From contig JQNH01000001.1 of the NCBI GenBank assembly GCA_000745135.1, positions 2,356,001-2,420,000 on the forward strand: a DNA stretch of 64,000 bases, in the 5' to 3' direction. This DNA comes from Rhizobiales bacterium YIM 77505. GTDB lineage: Bacteria; Pseudomonadota; Alphaproteobacteria; Rhizobiales; Beijerinckiaceae. Both the position numbers and the translations under genes were made by a program. The notes beneath the pieces were generated by a model. The model had not been told where the DNA came from, did not search any database, and was given only the letters and a program-made list of their open reading frames with translations. Of the stretch, positions 1,996-12,278 are shown piece after piece. Position 1 is the stretch's first letter; every line of letters starts with the position of its first letter.

Positions 1996-2562
1996 TCAGA
2001 GCCGCGCCCTGCGATGGCGGGCGACAAGCAGCTCGAGGGTTGAAGGCAGAGGCGCCGCCTCGTCGATCTCGTCGCCGCGATGCTCGAACCAGCGCGCGAC
2101 GAGCACGCGGACGGCCTGCCTCAACGTGGCAGGCACGTCGCCCGCAGACGCGCCGAAGCCGACGACCACGTCCAGGGCAATGCCTTGCGCGGCAAGGCCC
2201 GGCTCCGGCGCCGTCGCATCCACGATGAGGCGCGGCGGATCGCTCGAGGCCTCGACGCGATAGAGAGCGGCGGACACATCCGAAGGCGCGCCGCTCGCGT
2301 CGAAGACGCGCACGCGGTCGACGCGGATCAAGGGCGACAGGGGCAGGCGCAGGATGCGCCCTTGCGGCCAACGGTCGAGCAGGATGCGCCAGGTCTGCTC
2401 GACGAGCTGGCGGCCGCAGGCGGCCTCGACGAGGAGGCGGGCCGCGGTGATCAGGGCTGCGACGAGCTCGTCCTCCGCCTCGTCGTCAAGCCGCAGATAG
2501 GCGCGCATTTCCGCGACGCTCACGGGCTCGACGCCGGGCCCGGCGATCAGTATCGGGGTCAT
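1996..2562 (-). CDS. phage head-tail connector protein (GTA gp6)
   Basis: A 188-aa protein beginning MTPILIAGPGVEPVSVAEMRAYLRLD, the standard opening of the head-tail connector / DNA packaging family (HK97 gp6-like), with helical DELVAALITAARLLVEAACGRQL and a C-terminal ATLRQAVRVLVARWFEHR. Start chosen at the ATG at 2562; the upstream extension lacks family character. It is the first gene after a 2.1-kb insertion that separates it from the major capsid gene, so it may need its own promoter in the 59-bp space shared with the divergent protease gene. Confidence 0.85.
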   Translation of the reverse strand: MTPILIAGPGVEPVSVAEMRAYLRLDDEAEDELVAALITAARLLVEAACGRQLVEQTWRILLDRWPQGRILRLPLSPLIRVDRVRVFDASGAPSDVSAALYRVEASSDPPRLIVDATAPEPGLAAQGIALDVVVGFGASAGDVPATLRQAVRVLVARWFEHRGDEIDEAAPLPSTLELLVARHRRARL

Positions 2563-2621
2563 GGAATGATCCTGGGGAAGCCAAAGGTCGTCTCGGGCGC
2601 ACCCGAGAAAGGAGGTGAACG

Positions 2622-3365
2622 ATGCGGATGCGCGTGAGCGCGGTCGCGCTCGCTTCACTGGCGCTCGGCGCGCCGGCGCAGGCCATCGTCGGCGGCACGC
2701 CGGATGACGGGGCGCTGGCGCGCGCCAGCGTAATGATCGTCAGTCCCACCGGCATGTGCAGCGGTGTGGTGGTGGACGCCGACGTGGTGTTGACCGCCGC
2801 CCATTGCGTCACCGGCGCGCCCGATTACCGGGTCTTCCACCGCGCGGCAGCAGGCGAGCCGGTGCTGATCCCAATCGCCGCCAAGGCGGTCCATCCGCAG
2901 TTCGAGCCGAACGCCGTCGCAGCGCGCCGGCGCTCGATCGATCTTGCCCTCATCCGCCTCGCGGAGCGGCTGCCGCCCGCCTATGGCGCAGCGGAGTTCT
3001 CCGCCGCTCAGCCTCGCGCCGGGGCGCCGATCCGCGTCGGCGGATTCGGCGTTGCCCGCGAAGGAGACGCCCGCTCGACCGGAGCGTTCCGGATCGCCGA
3101 TCTCGCCGTGGTCGAGCCCCATGGCGCGAGCGCGATCCTGCTGTGGGCGAAGGGCGTCAGGACAGGCGCCTGCACCGGCGATTCCGGCGGTCCGATGGCC
3201 GCGGACGATCGTGTGGTGGCCGTCGTCACCTGGGCCAAGGGAGCGGCAGCCGGCGGTTGCGGCGCCATCTCGCAGGGCGTCCTCCTCGCGCCCCAGCGGG
3301 CGTGGATCGACCGCACCCTTGCGGCCTGGGGCCGCAAGGCGCGCTGGGCGGGCGGTGCGTCTTGA
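2622..3365 (+). CDS. secreted trypsin-like serine protease (S1 family), inserted in GTA cluster
   Basis: A 247-aa protein with a signal peptide (residues 1-21, ending APAQA) followed directly by IVGGTPDD. The chymotrypsin triad is complete: His61 in LTAAHC, Asp107 in SIDLAL, Ser188 in TGDSGGP. Signal peptidase cleavage at AQA/IVGG would itself create the free Ile-Val-Gly-Gly N-terminus that activates this fold, so no zymogen step would be needed. A strong Shine-Dalgarno (AAAGGAGGTG) stands before the ATG. It lies on the opposite strand to the GTA genes, between connector and capsid, and is followed by a second related protease. Substrate unknown; probably periplasmic or extracellular. Confidence 0.85.
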   Translation: MRMRVSAVALASLALGAPAQAIVGGTPDDGALARASVMIVSPTGMCSGVVVDADVVLTAAHCVTGAPDYRVFHRAAAGEPVLIPIAAKAVHPQFEPNAVAARRRSIDLALIRLAERLPPAYGAAEFSAAQPRAGAPIRVGGFGVAREGDARSTGAFRIADLAVVEPHGASAILLWAKGVRTGACTGDSGGPMAADDRVVAVVTWAKGAAAGGCGAISQGVLLAPQRAWIDRTLAAWGRKARWAGGAS

Positions 3366-3412
3366 CGGCCCTGTTCCATTTCGGGACCCTGGCGCGGGGG
3401 CACGTCGAATCC

Positions 3413-4255
3413 ATGAAAGCCGCCATGCGTTGTCCGCTCGCCCTTCTCGCGCTCCTCCTTCCGACCGCAGCCGACGCCGTGACCCGCGGGCAGGTCACCC
3501 GTGATCCGAACGGCGTGCGCAGCTCGGTGGTGCGCGTCGAATCCTCGCGCGGCGAGCTCTGCTCCGGCGCGGTGATCGCGCCTGACCTGGTGCTGACCGC
3601 CGCCCATTGCGTCATCGATCGCGCCCATTATCGGATCGTCGCCGTCGACCGGGCCTTCCGGCCCCGCACGATCCGCGCCGTCGCCGCCGCCATGCACCCG
3701 GCCTTTGTGGCAGGGACGACGCCGCGCACCCAGCCCGGCGTGGATCTCGCCATCCTCAAGCTCGAGCGGCCGCTCGGGCCCGACTTCGTGCCTCTCGATC
3801 CGCGCTTTGCGGGGCGGGTGGTCGAAGGGCAGCCCGTGGACATCGCCGGCTTCGGGGTCTCGGGCGAAGGCCGCAAGGGGACGGCGCGCATCCTGCGCCA
3901 GGCACGCCTCGTTTCGCTCGGGCCGCTGCAGGTGGCGAATCGCGTGGTCGTGGTGGCCGACGAGGAACGCCGGGCGGTGCTGCCCGGGGCCGGCGCCTGC
4001 CGGGGCGATTCCGGCGGACCGATCCTCACCGGCGGCCCCGGCGGCTACCAGCTCCTCGGCATCGTGAGCTGGTCGAGCGGGGCGCTGCGCTCCCTGGACG
4101 GCTCGGCCTGCGGCGGCCTCACCGCTGTCACTCCGGTCGCCGAGCATGCGGGGTGGATCGCCGCCCGCGCGGAGGACCTGCGCCGCCTGGCGCCTGGCCA
4201 GGCGACCGCTGCGCCCCGAGCGCCGGCGAGCCCCTTCGACTGGATGACCCGGTAG
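3413..4255 (+). CDS. secreted trypsin-like serine protease (S1 family), second tandem copy
   Basis: A 280-aa protein with a signal peptide (about residues 1-22, ending TAADA). The triad is His65 in LTAAHC, Asp111 in GVDLAIL and Ser200 in CRGDSGGP. Cleavage after ADA would leave VTRG at the N-terminus, close to the usual IVGG activating end. The C-terminus adds a Pro/Ala-rich tail (about residues 260-280). It follows the first protease by 47 bp on the same strand, so the two are probably an operon born by duplication; they are now well diverged. Start at 3413 (ATG) with another ATG 12 bases on. Inserted within the GTA head gene block; role there is unknown. Confidence 0.85.
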   Translation: MKAAMRCPLALLALLLPTAADAVTRGQVTRDPNGVRSSVVRVESSRGELCSGAVIAPDLVLTAAHCVIDRAHYRIVAVDRAFRPRTIRAVAAAMHPAFVAGTTPRTQPGVDLAILKLERPLGPDFVPLDPRFAGRVVEGQPVDIAGFGVSGEGRKGTARILRQARLVSLGPLQVANRVVVVADEERRAVLPGAGACRGDSGGPILTGGPGGYQLLGIVSWSSGALRSLDGSACGGLTAVTPVAEHAGWIAARAEDLRRLAPGQATAAPRAPASPFDWMTR

Positions 4256-4350
4256 CTCGGGCGTCGAGCGGAAGCGGCGACGCTTCGAGGGCTGCAACCG
4301 AAAGCCTGCCCCGGCATTAAAGCTGGCATCTTGAGCCCTGGAGAGCGCCC

Positions 4351-4659
4351 ATGCGTGCTGGCGCTGCCCGGCGGCGTTTGGCCGCCGTCACCTTTGCCCT
4401 TCTTGTGTTGTCGCCGGCCGCTTCGGCCCATGATGTCTGGATCAACAAGCAGAGGCGCACCAACAGCGCCGGCGAGTGGTGCTGCAACAGCATGGACTGC
4501 ACGAAGGTGCAGGCCAAGGAGACGCCCCGCGGCTATCTCTTCTCCACCAGCGAAGAGATTCCCCGCAGCGAGGTGATGCTGTCGGGCGACGGCGATTTCT
4601 GGATCTGCCGGCGCCCCGACAAGACCATCCGCTGCGCCTTCGCGCGGCTGGGAAGCTGA
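4351..4659 (+). CDS. small exported Cys-rich protein of unknown function
   Basis: A 102-aa protein with an N-terminal signal peptide (hydrophobic AAVTFALLVLSPAASA, residues 11-26) and a mature part of about 76 residues. The mature part carries HDVWINKQRR, a CC pair in GEWCCNSMDC, and two later cysteines (WICRR, RCAF), suggesting disulfides in the periplasm. It follows the second protease by 95 bp on the same strand and faces the capsid gene convergently. I recognise the CCN-x-x-DC pattern as common in small exported proteins of this bacterial group but know no function. Confidence 0.65.
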   Translation: MRAGAARRRLAAVTFALLVLSPAASAHDVWINKQRRTNSAGEWCCNSMDCTKVQAKETPRGYLFSTSEEIPRSEVMLSGDGDFWICRRPDKTIRCAFARLGS

Positions 4660-4721
4660 CGCGTCCACCTGCGGCGACGCGAAGGGGTTGGGCGGCAGGC
4701 CGCGCCCTCTCGCCGATGGAC

Positions 4722-5948
4722 TTACGCGAACTTCATCAGCTTGATGGCGTCGTAGTCCTGCACCCCGCCGCCGACGCGCTTGGTTGTGTAGAACAGCACA
4801 TAGGGCTTGGCCGAGAACGGATCGCGCAGCACGCGCACGCCGGCGCGGTCGACGACGAGATAGCCGCGGCGGAAATCCCCGAACGCGATCGACAGCGTAT
4901 TGGCCGCGATGTCCGGCATGTCCTCCGCCTCGACCACCGGGAACGACATCAGCGTCGCAGAAGCGCCTGCGCTCGCCGGCGGCTGCCAGAGGTAGTTGCC
5001 GTTCGCATCCTTGAACCGGCGGATCATGCTCTGCGTCTTGCGGTTCATGACGAAGGTGGCGTTCTGCCGATAGCCGGCCTTGAGCCCGTAGACGAGCTCG
5101 ATGAGCTTGTCGGAGGGGTTCGCGGCCGGGAAGGCGCCTGCCTGGCCGGTGGCGACGAAGCCCAGATTGCCCCAGCTCCAGGAACCGTTGTCCACGGCAG
5201 GCGAGGCAAGGAAGCCCTTCGGCTTGTTGATGCCGTCGCCCTGGACGAAGGCCGTCCCCTCCTGCTCGGCGAAGGCGGTCTCGATCTCGTCGGCGATCCA
5301 GCGCTCGATGTCGACGACGGCGTCGTCGAGGAGGGTCTGGGTCGCCGCCGGCATGGCGTAAAGCTCCATGGCGGGGAAGGTCAGCTCGGCCAGCGCCGGG
5401 CCGCCGGTCTGGGGCCGCGCCGCGGTCTCCGCCGTCCAGCCTGCGGCCGTGCCGCTCGTCGAGAAGGCGCGCTTGTAGAGTCCCCCGGAGATGATCCGCA
5501 CGGAGGCGATCGAGCGGATCGGCGAGATCACGGCGAGGCGGCGCAGCACCTCGCGCTCGATCGTCTCGGGCACGAGGTAGCCGCCGTCCGGGCCCGAGCC
5601 CGCCGAGAGCGCCTTGGCTTCCAGGCGCTTCAGGCTGCCGCCTTCGCCGGCGCGCATATAGGCCTCGAACGCGGCCTTGTGCTCGGCCTGAAGCGGCGAG
5701 CGAGGATCGGCGGCAGGTCCGGCCAGGGTCGGCCGGCTGCGGTCGAGCGTCAGCCGGTCGAGGTGGCGCTTCGCCTCCTCGAGCGCCTCGTCGAGGCGCC
5801 CGAGCTTCTCCTCGGTCAGGGCGTCGGCGGACAGCCGCGCCTCGATCTCGCCCAGGCGGCGGTCGTTGGTCTCCTTGAAGGCCTCGAAGATGTGGGTGAA
5901 CTCGTCGAAGGCCGCCGCCACGTCCGTCGAAGTGATGCCGGTGTCCAT
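4722..5948 (-). CDS. phage/GTA major capsid protein (HK97 fold)
   Basis: A 408-aa protein starting MDTGITSTDVAAAFDEFTHIF. The N-terminal delta-domain-like region (residues about 15-95) is helical and charged (FKETNDRRLGEIEARL), followed by the HK97 body: LSAGSGPDGGYLVPETIE, SASVRI-like strand, then WIADEIETAFAEQEGTAFVQGDG, the classic spine helix signature of this family. It ends with GGGVQDYDAIKLMKFA, typical of GTA capsids. The start at 5948 has GAAGAGGA upstream; an earlier in-frame start is rejected. It would form the icosahedral shell. It is separated from the protease gene by an opposite-strand insert and from the connector by three such genes. Confidence 0.93.
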   Translation of the reverse strand: MDTGITSTDVAAAFDEFTHIFEAFKETNDRRLGEIEARLSADALTEEKLGRLDEALEEAKRHLDRLTLDRSRPTLAGPAADPRSPLQAEHKAAFEAYMRAGEGGSLKRLEAKALSAGSGPDGGYLVPETIEREVLRRLAVISPIRSIASVRIISGGLYKRAFSTSGTAAGWTAETAARPQTGGPALAELTFPAMELYAMPAATQTLLDDAVVDIERWIADEIETAFAEQEGTAFVQGDGINKPKGFLASPAVDNGSWSWGNLGFVATGQAGAFPAANPSDKLIELVYGLKAGYRQNATFVMNRKTQSMIRRFKDANGNYLWQPPASAGASATLMSFPVVEAEDMPDIAANTLSIAFGDFRRGYLVVDRAGVRVLRDPFSAKPYVLFYTTKRVGGGVQDYDAIKLMKFA

Positions 5949-6132
5949 GAGGTCCTCTTCCGTTGGAGGTGAAAGGGTGCGGCGCCGCACGGCGCCAGGG
6001 TCGAAGCTCGGGTTCATTTCGTCCGAGGCGCCGCGACGAAATGTTGAGCCGCGCGACGACATCGGCCCGGAACGCAGGCGCGGTAGGAGGGTTGCCTATC
6101 AGCGGCTCGGACAGGCGGGCGGGAGACAGGCC

Positions 6133-6759
6133 ATGATGAAAATCGCCAAGATCACGGGGCTTGGGATCTTCGCCGCCATGCTGTGGGCGGCCTCGCATTT
6201 CACGACCGACAAGACCGACACCGCCTGGACCGGCAGGGCCGAGGCAACCGCTTCGGCAGCGCTGCCCGCGCCCCGGCCCTCGACCGCAGCCTCGCCCGAG
6301 GCGCGCGAAGTGAGGCGCATCGCCATCGTTCCCAAGGGGAGCGAAGCCACCGCCCCCGCGCCTGCGAAGGGCTGCGAGGACCAGGTCTGGCCGAACATCG
6401 CGCCGGCATGTCTGACCCGCGAGACGACCCCGGTCCGCAACGAGACGAAGGAGACCCGCGCCGTCGCATCGAGCGGGCCGTCGACCCCCGTCCAGGCCTC
6501 GGCGACCCCGGCGGATCCGCTCCCGGCGGATCCGATCACGACGGGCGCGCTGCCGCGCACGCCTGACGTCGCCATCGCAACCCCTGCCCTTCCCGGAGCG
6601 GTGGAGACGGCGCCTCCGGCCCGGAAGGCCTCTCGCGCAGGCGAGCGTCGCCGGGTGGCGCAGCGCGAGATCGACTGGCGCCCCGCCTTGCCGGCGCGCC
6701 TGCCCACATCCCGCGAGCCGATCCAGTTCCGGATCGCAGAGGGCAGCAGCAACCGGTGA
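6133..6759 (+). CDS. exported or membrane-anchored Pro/Ala-rich protein of unknown function, inserted in GTA cluster
   Basis: A 208-aa protein with a hydrophobic N-terminus (KITGLGIFAAMLWAASHF, about residues 6-23) that is either a signal peptide or a single membrane anchor. The rest is low complexity, rich in Ala, Pro and Thr, apart from a conserved-looking core GCEDQVWPNIAPACLTR around residues 77-94 with two cysteines, a pattern seen in small exported proteins of Rhizobiales, and a basic C-terminus. Two ATG codons are adjacent at 6133 and 6136. It ends 3 bp before the end of the convergent prohead protease gene. Function unknown. Confidence 0.6.
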   Translation: MMKIAKITGLGIFAAMLWAASHFTTDKTDTAWTGRAEATASAALPAPRPSTAASPEAREVRRIAIVPKGSEATAPAPAKGCEDQVWPNIAPACLTRETTPVRNETKETRAVASSGPSTPVQASATPADPLPADPITTGALPRTPDVAIATPALPGAVETAPPARKASRAGERRRVAQREIDWRPALPARLPTSREPIQFRIAEGSSNR

Positions 6760-6762
6760 CGG

Positions 6763-7374
6763 TCAGAGCGCCGCCCGAAGCCGACGCCCCGCCCGGCGGA
6801 TGGCGGCGGCAAGACCCGGCCCGTCCTGCCCGCGACCGGCCAGGGGCGGACGCCACGTGTGACGCTTGACCGTGCCGACCCGGGCGCCCGGCAGCATCGG
6901 GAAGGTGACGATCGAGATCTCCCACAGGTCGAGCTTTTCGAGGCGGCGGAGGCCGCCGCGCTCCTTGCGGGCGCGCTCGACGCGATAGCCGATGGAAAGG
7001 CCGTCGATGGCGCCCTCGCGCATCAGGGCATGGATCTCCCGCGCCCGCGCGACGCTGAGGTTCAGCCGCCCGCACACGCGAAGGCCGCGGGCATCCTCGC
7101 TGATCGACAGCCAGCGTCCAATGGGCTCGGACGCATCGTGCTGCCAGAGCATGCGCACGCCTTGCGCTCCGCGCCTCTTGAGGCACTCGGCGAAGGCGCC
7201 GGGCATTGTCACGTCCTTGCCGAGATCGGCGATCCCGAACAGGCTGGCATAGCCCTCGAAGGTCCCTCCTTCGTCAACGGCGGCAAGGGGCTGCGGCAGG
7301 AGCTTCGTCTCACGCTCCTGCAGGGCGCGCGTCCCCATCGAGGCGCTGGTGCGCGACAAGGCGGTCAGCGGCAT
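6763..7374 (-). CDS. phage/GTA prohead protease (HK97 gp4-like, S78)
   Basis: A 203-aa protein with the prohead protease pattern: GTFEGYASLFGIADLGKDVTMPGAF, catalytic His79 in MLWQHD, Ser127 in AIDGLSIGYRV, and WEISIVTFPMLPGARV near the end. It would cleave the capsid delta domain and scaffold during head maturation. The ATG at 7374 overlaps the end of the upstream 57-aa ORF by 10 bases; a later ATG (MGTRALQE) is possible. An extended frame further upstream is a shadow of the small genes. The order protease then capsid is as in RcGTA. Confidence 0.88.
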   Translation of the reverse strand: MPLTALSRTSASMGTRALQERETKLLPQPLAAVDEGGTFEGYASLFGIADLGKDVTMPGAFAECLKRRGAQGVRMLWQHDASEPIGRWLSISEDARGLRVCGRLNLSVARAREIHALMREGAIDGLSIGYRVERARKERGGLRRLEKLDLWEISIVTFPMLPGARVGTVKRHTWRPPLAGRGQDGPGLAAAIRRAGRRLRAAL

Positions 7375-7538
7375 CGCGGCGCCTCCCGCTGGGGCTGCGG
7401 TGTCGGGCGTGCGGCTTCCTCGCGCGCTGCTTCGAGCCGCTCCAGGGCGCGCACGAAGCTCGCGAACACGGTCTCGGAGGCCCGGCGGCGCGCAGCCGTC
7501 GCGGCAGGCAAGGGCCTTCCGGTTGACGTCCTTCTCAT
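7365..7538 (-). CDS. 57-aa ORF between head-formation protein and prohead protease
   Basis: A 57-aa Arg/Ala-rich peptide (MRRTSTGRPLP, then ETVFASFVRALERLEAARE as a likely amphipathic helix). Its ATG (7536-7538) overlaps the stop of the upstream gene in an ATGA junction, and its end overlaps the prohead protease start by 10 bp. This tight nesting fits a translated, coupled gene. I do not recognise a family; it could be a lineage-specific head protein or simply coding that couples translation to the protease. Confidence 0.5.
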   Translation of the reverse strand: MRRTSTGRPLPAATAARRRASETVFASFVRALERLEAAREEAARPTPQPQREAPRCR

Positions 7539-7735
7539 CGATCCTCTCCCGAATGGCGGCGGTTGAAGCGGGCAAGCTCGCGGACGAAATCGTCGAAGCG
7601 CTTGTTGGAAGCGGACAGGTCCCGCAGCACCAGGAGCGCCAGGGACGAAGCGGCGGAGGCCCACAGGAACAGGGCGAGATGGGCCAGGTCGCCCTTGGCG
7701 ACCACGGCGCCGACGATGGTATCGAGAGCGGTCAT
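7535..7735 (-). CDS. GTA head formation protein, RCAP_rcc01685-like
   Basis: A 66-aa protein in the position of the small gene between portal and prohead protease in RcGTA-like clusters. It has a hydrophobic stretch (AHLALFLWASAASSLALLVL, about residues 18-37) and then a charged helix SASNKRFDDFVRELARFNRRH. The ATG overlaps the portal stop codon (ATGA), so translation is probably coupled. Identification is by position, size and this hydrophobic-then-charged layout. Confidence 0.65.
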   Translation of the reverse strand: MTALDTIVGAVVAKGDLAHLALFLWASAASSLALLVLRDLSASNKRFDDFVRELARFNRRHSGEDR

Positions 7736-8904
7736 GGGGCACCGTCCTCGCCCATTCTCCTCCCATAGCCCACCGCCTCGCGCTTCTCGTCCGCCGTGAG
7801 GAAGGGTGCGGCGGCGATGCGGCGCCAGAGGGACTCGCGCTCGCTTGCGAGCGCCTCGACGGCGTCGAGGTCGGGCTCGAGCCGCAGGCCGTCGCCGAAG
7901 GCGGGCGCCAGCCAATGGGCCATCGCTTCGGCCGTCCGCTTGACGAGCGGGATCACCGTCTGCCGGTAGAAGGCGCGGTTGGCTTCTGCGTAGTTGGCAT
8001 GGGTGTTGTCGCCCGGGAGGCCCAGCAGCAGCGGCGGCACGCCGAAGGCAAGCGCGATCTCCCGCGCCGCGCTGTTCTTCGCCTCGATGAAATCCATGTC
8101 CTTGGGCGAAAGGGACAACGGCTTCCAGTCGAGCCCGCCGTCGAGAATGAGCGGCCGGCCGGCATTGGCCGCCCCCTGATAGCTCTCCTCAAGGTCGGCC
8201 TTGAGGCGCTCGAACTGCGTCTGCGTCAGGCGGGCGCCGCCGGGTGAGCCGAACACCAGGGCGCCCGAGGGGCGCGCCGCGTTGTCGAGGAGCGTCTTGT
8301 TCCAGGCCGCCGCGGCGTTGTGGATGTCGAGCGCCACCGCCGCCGCTTCCATCGGAGAGAGGCCGTAATGGTCGTCGGTCGGGTGAAACAGCGTCAGGTG
8401 CAGGATGGGCGGAACCGCTCCGTCCTGGACGAAGCGCACGCTCTCGGTGCCGACCGTGTAGTCGTAGGCGGCGGGCCAGCCCTTGGCGCCCGGCACCACG
8501 CGCATGCGGTCGGGCCGCAGGGTGTAGAGCTCGCGCGGGGCGCCGTCGAGGGCGATCGCCTCCACATAGGCGTTGCCCGAGACCAGGAGGTGCCCGTACA
8601 CGCCCTCCAGGAACCGCGCCCCGCCTTCACGGGGATTGGGCCGGGCCATGAGCGCGAGCAGCGGATGGGCATCGAGGCTGCGGCCCTTCTCCGTGAGCGA
8701 GAGCGGCAGGGCCGCCGCGGCCTCGACGACGAGGCGCACGGCGCGGTGTACCACCGGGTTCTTCTGGAAGCCCTCGCGGGCAAGGGCTCCATAATCGCGG
8801 GGCGTCCACACGGGTCGGCCCGCCACGTAGAGGGCGATCGCCCCACCTGCGCGCGAGGCCTTCGCCTCGGGCCGCGGCCAGAGGCGGGAGATCAGGTCGA
8901 GCAT
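7732..8904 (-). CDS. phage/GTA portal protein (HK97 gp3-like)
   Basis: A 390-aa HK97-type portal. Recognisable blocks are NPVVHRAVRLVVEAAAALPL, HPLLALMARPNP, LEGVYGHLLVSGNAYVE, LYTLRPDRMRVVPG, HLTLFHPTDDHYGLSPMEAAAVALD and GVPPLLLGLPGDNTHANYAEANRAFYRQTVIPL. The start is the ATG at 8904 (MLDLISRLW). It would form the dodecameric ring at the packaging vertex and contact terminase. Unlike the compact order elsewhere, the gap to terminase (10914) is filled with a repeat, a DoxX gene, an IS element and an exported protein gene. Confidence 0.93.
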   Translation of the reverse strand: MLDLISRLWPRPEAKASRAGGAIALYVAGRPVWTPRDYGALAREGFQKNPVVHRAVRLVVEAAAALPLSLTEKGRSLDAHPLLALMARPNPREGGARFLEGVYGHLLVSGNAYVEAIALDGAPRELYTLRPDRMRVVPGAKGWPAAYDYTVGTESVRFVQDGAVPPILHLTLFHPTDDHYGLSPMEAAAVALDIHNAAAAWNKTLLDNAARPSGALVFGSPGGARLTQTQFERLKADLEESYQGAANAGRPLILDGGLDWKPLSLSPKDMDFIEAKNSAAREIALAFGVPPLLLGLPGDNTHANYAEANRAFYRQTVIPLVKRTAEAMAHWLAPAFGDGLRLEPDLDAVEALASERESLWRRIAAAPFLTADEKREAVGYGRRMGEDGAP

Positions 8905-8919
8905 GGCTACCTCGTGCAG

Positions 8920-9115
8920 ATGTGGAGCGCTGCTTCGCAGCAATTCTTCGCTTCCGGGCGGGCCGGGATCAGGTGCGAACGGCCAATGGCGCTTCAGGCG
9001 CCCGTCCCCTTCCTGCCACGCTCCACCTTTCCCGGAGGCGTGGAGTGCCGAAGGCGCGGAACGCAGTCCGGGACGGAAGCAAAAGAAGACGTTGCGAAGC
9101 AGCGCCGTATCAGGG
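8920..9115. repeat. dispersed imperfect palindromic repeat (family B)
   Basis: Intergenic stretch containing GCTGCTTCGCAGC near 8928 and a module around 9028-9105 (TTTCCCGGA, GCGTGGAG, then GCGGAACGCAGTCCGGGA, then TTGCGAAGCAGCGCCGTAT). The two halves CCCGGA...GCGT and ACGCAGTCCGGG can pair. Related modules occur near 19450, 25950, 28895, 35580, 35660 and 49685 in either orientation. Confidence 0.7.
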
Positions 9116-9172
9116 CCGTTTGCGCCGGCGCCCCGGCGCGGCTAAGTCGCGCCGCTGAACGGGAGCAGAATC

Positions 9173-9562
9173 ATGTGGAACGTCGTCTATACGGTCGGGC
9201 GCATCGCGGTTGCGGCGATCTTCATCTGGTCGGGCGCGATGAAGCTCATGGCGCCCGCCGCCCTCACCGCCATGCTCTCCGCCAAGAGCTTCCCCATGCC
9301 GATGCTGTGGACCTATGCGGCCGGCGTCGCCGAGCTGACCCTGGGCGCCCTGGTGGCGATCGGCTGGCAGACACGGCTTGCGAGCTTCGGGCTCGTCGCC
9401 TTCACGGTCGTCGCCACTCTCATCGCCCACGACTTCTGGAACATGAGCGGCGCCGCCCGCTCCGCCAACCAGATCCACACGATGAAGAACCTCTCCATCA
9501 TCGGCGCGCTCCTTATGCTGATGGCGGCCGGAGCGGGCCGATTCTCCGTCGACCGCCGGTGA
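9173..9562 (+). CDS. DoxX family membrane protein
   Basis: A 129-aa protein with four predicted membrane helices (about residues 7-25, 45-65, 70-87, 106-121). The first helix and flanking WSGAMKLMAP match the DoxX pattern F-x-x-SG-x-x-K. DoxX proteins are small inner-membrane proteins, some linked to thiosulfate:quinone oxidoreductase or oxidative stress; the exact role here is unknown. It is on the plus strand, opposite to the GTA genes, between portal and terminase, and ends just before the left end of an IS5-family element. GGGAGC precedes the ATG. Confidence 0.8.
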   Translation: MWNVVYTVGRIAVAAIFIWSGAMKLMAPAALTAMLSAKSFPMPMLWTYAAGVAELTLGALVAIGWQTRLASFGLVAFTVVATLIAHDFWNMSGAARSANQIHTMKNLSIIGALLMLMAAGAGRFSVDRR

Positions 9563-9596
9563 GGAAACAGGCGCAAGGATCGAGCGTGCTCTCACC

Positions 9597-10406
9597 CTAG
9601 AGTCTGTTATGGACCAGTTCTGCGGCTTGACGGAGCATGAGGCAAGCGAAGGCGACGACGTGGAGGCCTGCGAGGGTTGTGTGCAGGCGCTCGTAGTCTT
9701 TGACGAGGCGGCGGCAGCGGGTGGCCCAAGCGAAGGATCGCTCGACGACCCAGCGCCGGGGCAGGAGGACGAAGCCGCGCTTGGCCTCGGGCAGGCGCAC
9801 GACCTCTAGGGCGATGCCGTGTTCGCTGGCGGCCGCGGCCGGCTTGTCGCCGGTATAGCCCTGGTCAACGAAGGCGATCTCGACGCTGTTGCCGGTGGCC
9901 TGCTGCACGGCGGCGGCCAGGCGCCCGACCTCGGCGCGGTCGTCCGCCGTGGCGGGGGTGACGTGGAGGGCCAGGAGGTGGCCGAGCGTGTCGACCGCCA
10001 GGTGCAGCTTGGAGCCCTTCTTGCGCTTGGCGCCGTCATAGCCGGCGCGGTGGCCGCTCTCGGGCGTGGAGCGCAGCGTCCGGCTGTCGAGGATGGCGGC
10101 CGAGGGTGCGGGCGGGCGCCCGGCCGCCACCCGCAACAGCACGCGCAGGTCGTGGGCGAGCGCCTCGAACGAACCGGCCCGCAGCCAGCGCTGCGCCTGC
10201 TGATACACGGCCGCCCAAGGCGGCAGATCATTCGGCATCGCCCGCCAGGCAATGCCGTTGCGGACAACATAGCGCAGCCCGTTGAACACCTCGCGCAACG
10301 AGTGCTCCCGCTGCCCCGCCGCCTCAGGCAAGAGTGCAAGATAGGGCGCAACCAGCGCCCATTCGTCATCCGAAACGTCCGAGGGATAAGACTTGCGAGC
10401 AATCAT
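9597..10406 (-). CDS. IS5-family transposase
   Basis: A 269-aa transposase. The N-terminus SDDEWALVAPYLALLPE and IAWRAMPNDLPPWAAVYQQ match the DUF4096-type N-terminal region of IS5-family enzymes. The DDE triad is visible: Asp107 in AILDSRTL, Asp181 in FVDQGYTGD and Glu222 in RRWVVERSFAW, with the typical K-rich YDGAKRKKGSKLHLAVD between. No frameshift, so unlike IS elements with a programmed shift it is read as a single protein. Its stop codon falls in the left inverted repeat. A promoter-like sequence at 10442-10470 could drive it. Confidence 0.93.
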   Translation of the reverse strand: MIARKSYPSDVSDDEWALVAPYLALLPEAAGQREHSLREVFNGLRYVVRNGIAWRAMPNDLPPWAAVYQQAQRWLRAGSFEALAHDLRVLLRVAAGRPPAPSAAILDSRTLRSTPESGHRAGYDGAKRKKGSKLHLAVDTLGHLLALHVTPATADDRAEVGRLAAAVQQATGNSVEIAFVDQGYTGDKPAAAASEHGIALEVVRLPEAKRGFVLLPRRWVVERSFAWATRCRRLVKDYERLHTTLAGLHVVAFACLMLRQAAELVHNRL

Positions 10407-10913: not shown

Positions 10914-12278
10914 TCACAGCGCCCTGATGCGCGGCCCCTCCCCCGCCAGCATGAGGTGGGTGAGCGCCCAGACGAGGGCGTCGAGGCGGTCGGGCGAGCG
11001 TCCCGAGGAGAGGCCCGCCGGGCCGAAATCGCACATCTCGTCCTCGAGCGCCGGGAAGGTCCCCACATGGCGCACGCGGCCTCTCGCGTAGAGCACCGAC
11101 ACCGGCTCCGCGCGCAGATATTTGCCGCGCCGGGCCACCACCGGGGTGACGGGCACGCAAGGGTCCACCTGCGCCAGGACGGCGGTGGCCATCTCGCCGC
11201 CCTGGTTCGTCTCGACCACGAGCGCATCCGCTTGCACGCGGCGATAGAGGGCAAGGGCGACGGCCGCCCAGTCCGGCGGGGCAAGCCCCGCCACGGTGGC
11301 GTCCTCGAGGACGTAAGCGGTGCCGCCATCGTCGACGCCGGCGGCGACGAGGCCGCAGGCGTCGGCCGCGCGCGAGGAGGAGGCGGGCGGATCGACCGCG
11401 ACGACGATGCGCATCAGCGGCGGCGCCGTCGCTACCCGCGCCCGCTCGATCCCCTCCCGGTTCCACAAGGCATCGGGCCGGTCGTCGACGATCTCCCCCT
11501 CGATCTCCTGCCGGCCGAGGCGCGTGCCGGCATAGCGCGCCAGGACGCCTTCGAGGAAGGCCGGCGAGAGATGGCGGGCATTGGCGCCGGTCGGCGCATG
11601 GCTCCTGACGCAGGAAGGAGTGTCGAGGAGCCGCTTCAGGAGCGGGATCGGGCGTGGCGTCGTCGTCACGATCTGCCGCGGACGCTCGCCGAGGCGCAGG
11701 GCGAACTGGAGCATGTCCCAGGTGTCCTCCGCGTGGCGCCACTTGGCGAGCTCGTCGCACCAGGCGGCTTCGAACTGCGGCCCGCGCAAGGAGTCCGGGT
11801 CCTCGGCCGAGAAGACATGCGCCACCGCACCGTTCGGCCATTGGAGCTTGCGCAAGGAAGGCGACCACTCCGGACGGCTGGTGCCGCACACGGCGAGGAG
11901 GCCGGAGGGTCCCTCCAGCATCACGTCCCTTGCCGCGGCGAAGCTGTCGCCGACGAGAGCGATGCGCCCGACGGGCCTCGTCGTGAACCAGGGCTCGCCT
12001 GCGACGAGGCCCCTCACCCACTCCGAGCCCGCCCGCGTCTTGCCGGCGCCGCGGCCGCCGATGAGGAGCCACGTGCTCCAGTCCTCGCGCGCCGCCCCGA
12101 GGGGGAGCTGATGGTCATGAGCCTTGCCGATCCAGGTGTCCAGCAGGCGGCGAAGGGGCCGGTCGCCGAGCAGCCTCAGCGTCGTCGGGAGGTTGTTCCC
12201 ATCCGAGGACCTCCTGAAACGCTCGCGCAAGATCCTGATAGATCTCATCCATGTCAGCGGGGTCAGGCTCTGCGTCAT
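10914..12278 (-). CDS. phage/GTA terminase large subunit (gp2)
   Basis: A 454-aa protein with the ATPase of a packaging motor: Walker A LLIGGRGAGKTRAG with Lys80, Walker B-like FEAAWCDELAKW, and the coupling-type segment QIVTTTPRP. The C-terminal RNase H-like nuclease shows RIVVAVDPPAS, VVETNQGGEM and a late RLDALVWALTHLML. It would package and cut DNA; in GTAs packaging is headful and from random host DNA. The longest frame overlaps the small-subunit gene by 164 bp; the ATG at 12278 or 12248 is the only reasonable start, since no other start codon occurs before the ATPase domain. Confidence 0.93.
   Translation of the reverse strand: MTQSLTPLTWMRSIRILRERFRRSSDGNNLPTTLRLLGDRPLRRLLDTWIGKAHDHQLPLGAAREDWSTWLLIGGRGAGKTRAGSEWVRGLVAGEPWFTTRPVGRIALVGDSFAAARDVMLEGPSGLLAVCGTSRPEWSPSLRKLQWPNGAVAHVFSAEDPDSLRGPQFEAAWCDELAKWRHAEDTWDMLQFALRLGERPRQIVTTTPRPIPLLKRLLDTPSCVRSHAPTGANARHLSPAFLEGVLARYAGTRLGRQEIEGEIVDDRPDALWNREGIERARVATAPPLMRIVVAVDPPASSSRAADACGLVAAGVDDGGTAYVLEDATVAGLAPPDWAAVALALYRRVQADALVVETNQGGEMATAVLAQVDPCVPVTPVVARRGKYLRAEPVSVLYARGRVRHVGTFPALEDEMCDFGPAGLSSGRSPDRLDALVWALTHLMLAGEGPRIRAL

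Follow-up and report, generated by a model that had tools for sequence, protein, structure and literature searches.

Within the 64,000-nucleotide stretch of DNA analyzed here (the window; positions 2,356,001-2,420,000 of a 4.19-Mb single-contig genome), two tandem genes for secreted serine proteases, S1a and S1b, lie inside the head-tail cluster of an RcGTA-type gene transfer agent (GTA), a domesticated virus, on the strand opposite to that of the GTA genes. Comparison of related genomes indicates that S1a, together with its tandem relative S1b, is likely to be an old, moron-like accessory gene that functions independently at the cell envelope or outside the cell and is not a part of the GTA, and that the pair probably works for the cell and not for the particle.

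Two secreted proteases within a GTA head-tail cluster

The GTA cluster occupies the left end of the window on the minus strand, in the order g10, g9, the g8 position, g7, g6, a gap, g5, g4, g3 and the terminase. Profile searches identified the genes g10 to g7, comprising tail genes, the g8 position and head closure (384-1959), followed by g6, which codes for the head-tail connector and forms the left border of the insert (1996-2562; PF05135, TIGR02215). The right border is formed by g5, the gene for the HK97-type major capsid protein (4722-5972; PF05065, TIGR01554), which is convergent with the insert and whose start is approximate. Further along the same strand are g4, coding for an HK97-type prohead protease (6763-7485; PF04586, TIGR01543), g3, coding for the portal (7732-8943; PF04860), and g2, coding for the large terminase (10914-12278; PF03237, PF17289). 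With g4, the cluster already contains a dedicated capsid-processing enzyme. The gap between g6 and g5 houses three plus-strand genes, namely S1a, S1b and a gene for a protein of 102 residues. An earlier reading of this DNA from the sequence alone had placed a tandem pair of secreted S1 proteases in a GTA cluster; both reading frames are indeed found there and their neighbors are identifiable as RcGTA genes, to which we add the opposite strand and the third small reading frame in the gap.

S1a (2622-3365, plus strand) encodes a secreted S1A serine protease of 247 residues, with a signal peptide at 2622-2684 and a mature sequence that begins with IVGG at 2685. S1b (3413-4255, plus strand) encodes a second such protease of 280 residues, with a signal peptide at 3413-3478 and a mature sequence that begins with VTRG at 3479. 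The full His-Asp-Ser triads that the earlier reading had ascribed to both proteins are H61/D107/S188 in S1a (codons 2802-2804, 2940-2942 and 3183-3185) and H65/D111/S200 in S1b (codons 3605-3607, 3743-3745 and 4010-4012). The two proteins match the Pfam Trypsin profile PF00089 with 81.2 bits and 78.1 bits respectively (curated cut-off 20.6), which places both in peptidase family S1A; the peptidase domain is the sole domain matched in either of them by profile search, and they share 31% identity over their aligned part. Four more matches to PF00089 are found elsewhere in the same genome.

S1a and g6 are divergent and separated by 59 bp; this gap contains a strong plus-strand Shine-Dalgarno sequence, read from the sequence as AAAGGAGGTGA (2608-2618), which ends 3 nt 5' of the S1a ATG. 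Scans of 2400-4800 for promoters and terminators returned nothing above chance, and a search for a terminator on the GTA strand within the insert gave one weak site at chance level and none that was convincing. Sites of the CtrA type (TTAA-N7-TTAA) were absent near the insert, with one occurrence elsewhere at chance level. The base composition of the g5-g6 insert shows no departure from its surroundings. The third gene of the insert (4351-4659, plus strand), between S1b and g5, codes for a small secreted protein of 102 residues with several cysteines, which matched no family in profile searches; it was seen beside the proteases in two genomes of this genus only.

An IS4/5-type transposase gene (9597-10406, minus strand) separates the terminase gene of the GTA from the portal gene; this genome may therefore have an impaired GTA next to intact proteases. 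In another genome of the genus (G001, locus L039), the capsid gene is in pieces at 3948-6327 with its C-terminal part present twice, reflecting either decay or an assembly fault; S1a and S1b look intact beside it.

Signal-peptide junction, activation and specificity

We compared the junction and the triad in 55 S1a and 23 S1b proteins of the family, the copies of the window included. The catalytic His, Asp and Ser and the GDSG motif are intact in all 78 sequences. The residue at -1 is alanine in 54 of the 55 S1a proteins (glycine in the other) and in all 23 S1b proteins, and the equivalent of Ile16, which is I, V or L (M in one case), comes directly after the signal peptide. Mature S1a usually starts with [IV]-V-G-G and mature S1b with V-x-x-G; in three divergent S1a proteins (L077, L078 and L085) the mature end is LGG or VGG and one residue shorter. 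In the window the S1a junction reads LGAPAQA/IVGG, with APAQA directly before IVGG just as the earlier reading described it, and that of S1b reads ADA/VTRG, so that the junction falls at the same place in both members of the pair and only the IVGG start has to be corrected for S1b. In every orthologue the Ile16 equivalent adjoins the predicted site of signal peptidase cleavage with no residues in between, and a propeptide to be cut by a second protease, as in zymogen-type S1A enzymes, is thus lacking from the predicted products. Judged from these sequences, an alanine at -1 with an Ile16 equivalent immediately behind it is not expected by chance, and the comparison points to propeptide-free processing that is conserved among the orthologues.

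S1A proteases are activated by a free residue 16. In the AlphaFold2 model of mature S1a, begun at IVGG (mean pLDDT 95.9), the first ten residues are ordered (pLDDT 97); the model consists mostly of strands with a C-terminal helix, and solved S1A chains are matched by profile over nearly the full length. The conserved junction and the ordered N-terminus of the model, taken with this mode of activation, suggest that cleavage by signal peptidase alone would activate the enzyme. The same proposal in the sequence-only reading is strengthened by the conservation of the junction in all orthologues examined.

The specificity pocket departs from that of trypsin. Position 189 is occupied by G, A or S in all orthologues and never by D, residue 216 is mostly A or S, and residue 226 is mostly G in S1a. 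As the Asp189 that goes with trypsin specificity for Lys/Arg at P1 is absent, "trypsin" describes the predicted fold only, and the earlier label of trypsin-like proteases holds for that fold and fails for the specificity. By these residues the pocket is non-tryptic and probably accommodates small or hydrophobic side chains.

Conservation of position and distribution

S1a-like genes are present in 146 of the 199 genomes of the family and in 36 of its 43 genera, and the GTA capsid gene, at a strict cut-off, in 115 of the same 199 genomes. Both are found in 100 genomes, S1a only in 46 (a few of which may reflect contig ends, e.g. G024, where g6 lies beside S1), the GTA only in 15 and neither in 38. 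All the GTA-only genomes belong to two genera, coded g18 and g42, in whose loci (L079-L084) g5 and g6 are directly adjacent and an S1a homologue was not found. The co-presence of S1a and GTA amounts to a positive association (Fisher p = 6e-7), which shared descent by itself can yield.

A detailed reading of 144 distinct loci showed that g5 and g6 are both in the stretch at 93 of them, and all 93 display the order g6(-) S1(+) g5(-); this includes L072, which an automatic check of the order did not pass solely on account of a ~20-bp overlap between its g6 and S1a matches. The link with the GTA put forward in the sequence-only reading, which was to be given up if most relatives had the pair at sites remote from GTA genes, is thus borne out by the capsid gene in 100 of the 146 protease-bearing genomes, and the suggested look for S1 genes at related GTA loci reveals the same arrangement wherever g5 and g6 are both at hand. 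Hosts of the insert include Microvirga, Methylobacterium, Methylorubrum, Bosea, Chelatococcus, Enterovirga, Alsobacter and Ancylobacter, and in Rhodopseudomonas S1 has g6 on one side; overall the position is common to about 30 genera. In a sample at the level of the order, homologues occur in few families only and the capsid in 161 of 249 genomes; no homologue was recovered outside the order in a sample of the class. The copies in Bradyrhizobium sit elsewhere, and the rule of the site is accordingly not universal. Relocation of S1 away from the GTA cluster within a GTA-bearing genome was not seen, which would also be expected under a functional link to the GTA. One insertion followed by inheritance in place would be the simplest account of these patterns. 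A tandem S1a-like pair also occupies the same GTA site in another family (f20; L181-L184 and L194), where it is perhaps a duplication separate from that of S1a and S1b.

Retention of the proteases after GTA loss

Several genomes carry the proteases at the site of a GTA cluster that is gone. In Methylobacterium G187 and G107, where the GTA capsid is absent at E 1e-40, S1a-S1b adjoin the response regulator and kinase genes that in G009 and G082 mark the border of the GTA cluster. In Chelatococcus reniformis (G092) both flanks of S1 match both borders of the GTA cluster of G063. At two Bosea loci (L130 and L137) the genes to the left (response regulator, kinase, CcmI and CcmE) are the border genes of G188, and those to the right (LOG and M20) constitute the other GTA border in that genome; the nucleotide homology of L130 to GTA-bearing relatives covers S1a-S1b alone (8055-9710) and resumes beyond the cluster. 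In Methylocapsa and others, S1 is likewise enclosed by genes that GTA-bearing relatives have at the borders of the GTA cluster, and at L143 a capsid remnant of 240 bp is left. Altogether, of the 46 loci that lack a GTA cluster, 33 carry one or more markers of the GTA flanks next to S1: 25 with the response regulator upstream, and 8 more with PBP or CxxCxxCC genes beside S1. The same response regulator (86% identical) is also encoded in the genome of the window, outside its GTA cluster. A functional tie of the proteases to the neighboring two-component system was considered and dropped, as this becomes a close neighbor only once the GTA is gone.

On the S1a tree, GTA-bearing and GTA-less states switch at least 11 times (site-confirmed rows only) against ~24 times with shuffled labels, the count being taken from a gene tree with many weak, deep branches and not from a species tree; the GTA state is thus partly inherited, yet has changed many times. 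The gene order at the site suggests that the direction of these changes was GTA loss, since a gain would need two GTA halves to be inserted around the protease. For close pairs, dN/dS lies at 0.01-0.27 among GTA-less genomes and at 0.07-0.26 among those with a GTA, which indicates that S1 is under purifying selection also where the GTA has gone.

A proposed moron-like accessory gene and the alternatives

We propose that the g5-g6 interval of an RcGTA-type head cluster received a self-activating secreted S1A protease, oriented against the GTA genes, in what was probably a single event. The recipient would be the ancestor of a group within the Hyphomicrobiales that comprises the Beijerinckiaceae sensu lato, Ancylobacter, Rhodopseudomonas and further members, and the gene would have been inherited in place thereafter. 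Upon export, signal peptidase I would cut the protease at the A-x-A/[IV]-x-x-G junction, and the amino group of Ile/Val16, now free, would insert and form a salt bridge with Asp194; this would yield an enzyme that is active extracellularly or in the periplasm and has a non-tryptic pocket. Lineages that delete GTA genes would retain it in place. As in a moron, that is, an accessory gene between phage genes with opposite or independent transcription, S1 is oriented against its neighbors at 93 of 93 loci and S1a has its own Shine-Dalgarno sequence. We prefer the term moron-like to moron, as a search of 50,697 phage records returned no relative at E 1e-3. The same absence of phage-record matches lends no support to a phage origin, and the close hits in IMG/VR are GTA clusters filed as viruses. 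Several such "viral" contigs (among L213-L233) are bacterial GTA clusters with the same protease insert.

A part that serves the particle only should be present with the GTA and vanish with it, but 46 of the 146 protease-bearing genomes lack the capsid and 15 GTA genomes lack the protease; S1 is therefore unlikely to be a dedicated GTA part. The role in lysis, cell envelope opening or capsid processing that the sequence-only reading had entertained becomes doubtful for the same reason, as a dedicated GTA function predicts the opposite both of the retention of S1 at the old site under purifying selection and of the two genera that have the GTA without it. There is a wider form of this idea, by which the proteases are GTA parts that act on envelope, capsid or tail proteins in maturation, release or uptake, and are kept elsewhere through a second job. 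It could explain why the g5-g6 position is conserved across about 30 genera and why S1a and the GTA are statistically associated, and it has a parallel in Caulobacter, where GTA-mediated lysis requires LypA and LypC, both of which contain trypsin-like peptidase domains (PMC13236601). We nevertheless deem it unlikely: the survival of S1 after GTA loss in many lineages and the two genera with a protease-free GTA speak against it, the opposite strand means that S1 is not sense RNA in the GTA transcript, the signal peptides would carry the products out of the cytoplasm where capsids are assembled, and prohead cleavage is already the task of g4. It is the survival after GTA loss, the two protease-free genera and the presence of g4 that make a host function the likelier one.

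The conserved position also permits a regulatory link by antisense read-through, in which the g1-g15 GTA message would run through S1 in antisense as a non-contiguous operon, such that GTA expression silences the proteases or the reverse. The protease would then mark or protect non-producing cells, for example by guarding their surface against particles or lysis, and an alphaproteobacterial GTA would possess a built-in producer/recipient switch. Such a switch would fit the opposite strand at all 93 loci, the want of a convincing GTA-strand terminator in the insert and the divergence of S1a and g6 across 59 bp, but the orientation may be mere inheritance from one insertion and the GTA operon structure of this order is presumed by us to be that of Rhodobacter, and we regard this mechanism as quite improbable. 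Very improbable, in our estimate, is neutral hitchhiking, whereby a host protease gene landed in the GTA cluster and its position means nothing for the GTA or as phage cargo; it draws on the same data as the moron-like reading, including the lack of a relative in the 50,697 phage records, and is hard to separate from it by sequence, differing in the origin of the gene only.

Significance and comparison with known systems

In most discussions, the genes of a GTA are retained or lost as one unit. If the moron-like reading is right, a non-structural gene in the head cluster that is inherited across families and saved upon erasure of the GTA separates the cargo from the machine. S1 between response-regulator/ccm genes and PBP or LOG genes would likewise be a marker of a vanished GTA site, and the insert provides a secreted protease on which the idea of activation through signal peptidase alone could be put to a direct test. 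A literature search yielded no account of S1 protease genes inside a GTA cluster, and the GTA-linked trypsin-like peptidases that it returned were LypA and LypC of Caulobacter only.

Phage morons are accessory genes of prophages that benefit the host. S1 has in common with them an extra gene amid structural genes, with its own strand and ribosome site, that is kept by the host, and it differs in residing in a domesticated GTA cluster across ~30 genera and in repeatedly outliving the element. Secreted S1A proteases such as Streptomyces griseus trypsin and Vibrio VesC resemble S1a and S1b in profile match, triad, GDSGG motif and signal peptide, and in four invariant cysteines that fit the 42-58 and 191-220 disulfides; S1a and S1b, in contrast, are without a propeptide, have Gly, Ala or Ser at residue 189 and consist of a single domain of ~225 residues with no extra modules. 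The RcGTA g4 prohead protease (PF04586) is also a protease of the same cluster, but it belongs to another family, has no signal peptide role, is co-directional with the GTA genes and processes capsids. Lastly, LypABC is a CARD-NLR-like system required for GTA release in Caulobacter, of which LypA and LypC are larger, multi-domain proteins with CARD-like, ATPase-like and endonuclease domains (PMC13236601). S1a and S1b share with this system trypsin-like peptidase domains tied to a GTA; no CARD or ATPase domain is fused to their peptidase domain or encoded next to it, and, unlike LypABC, they are small, single-domain, secreted proteins that persist without the GTA.
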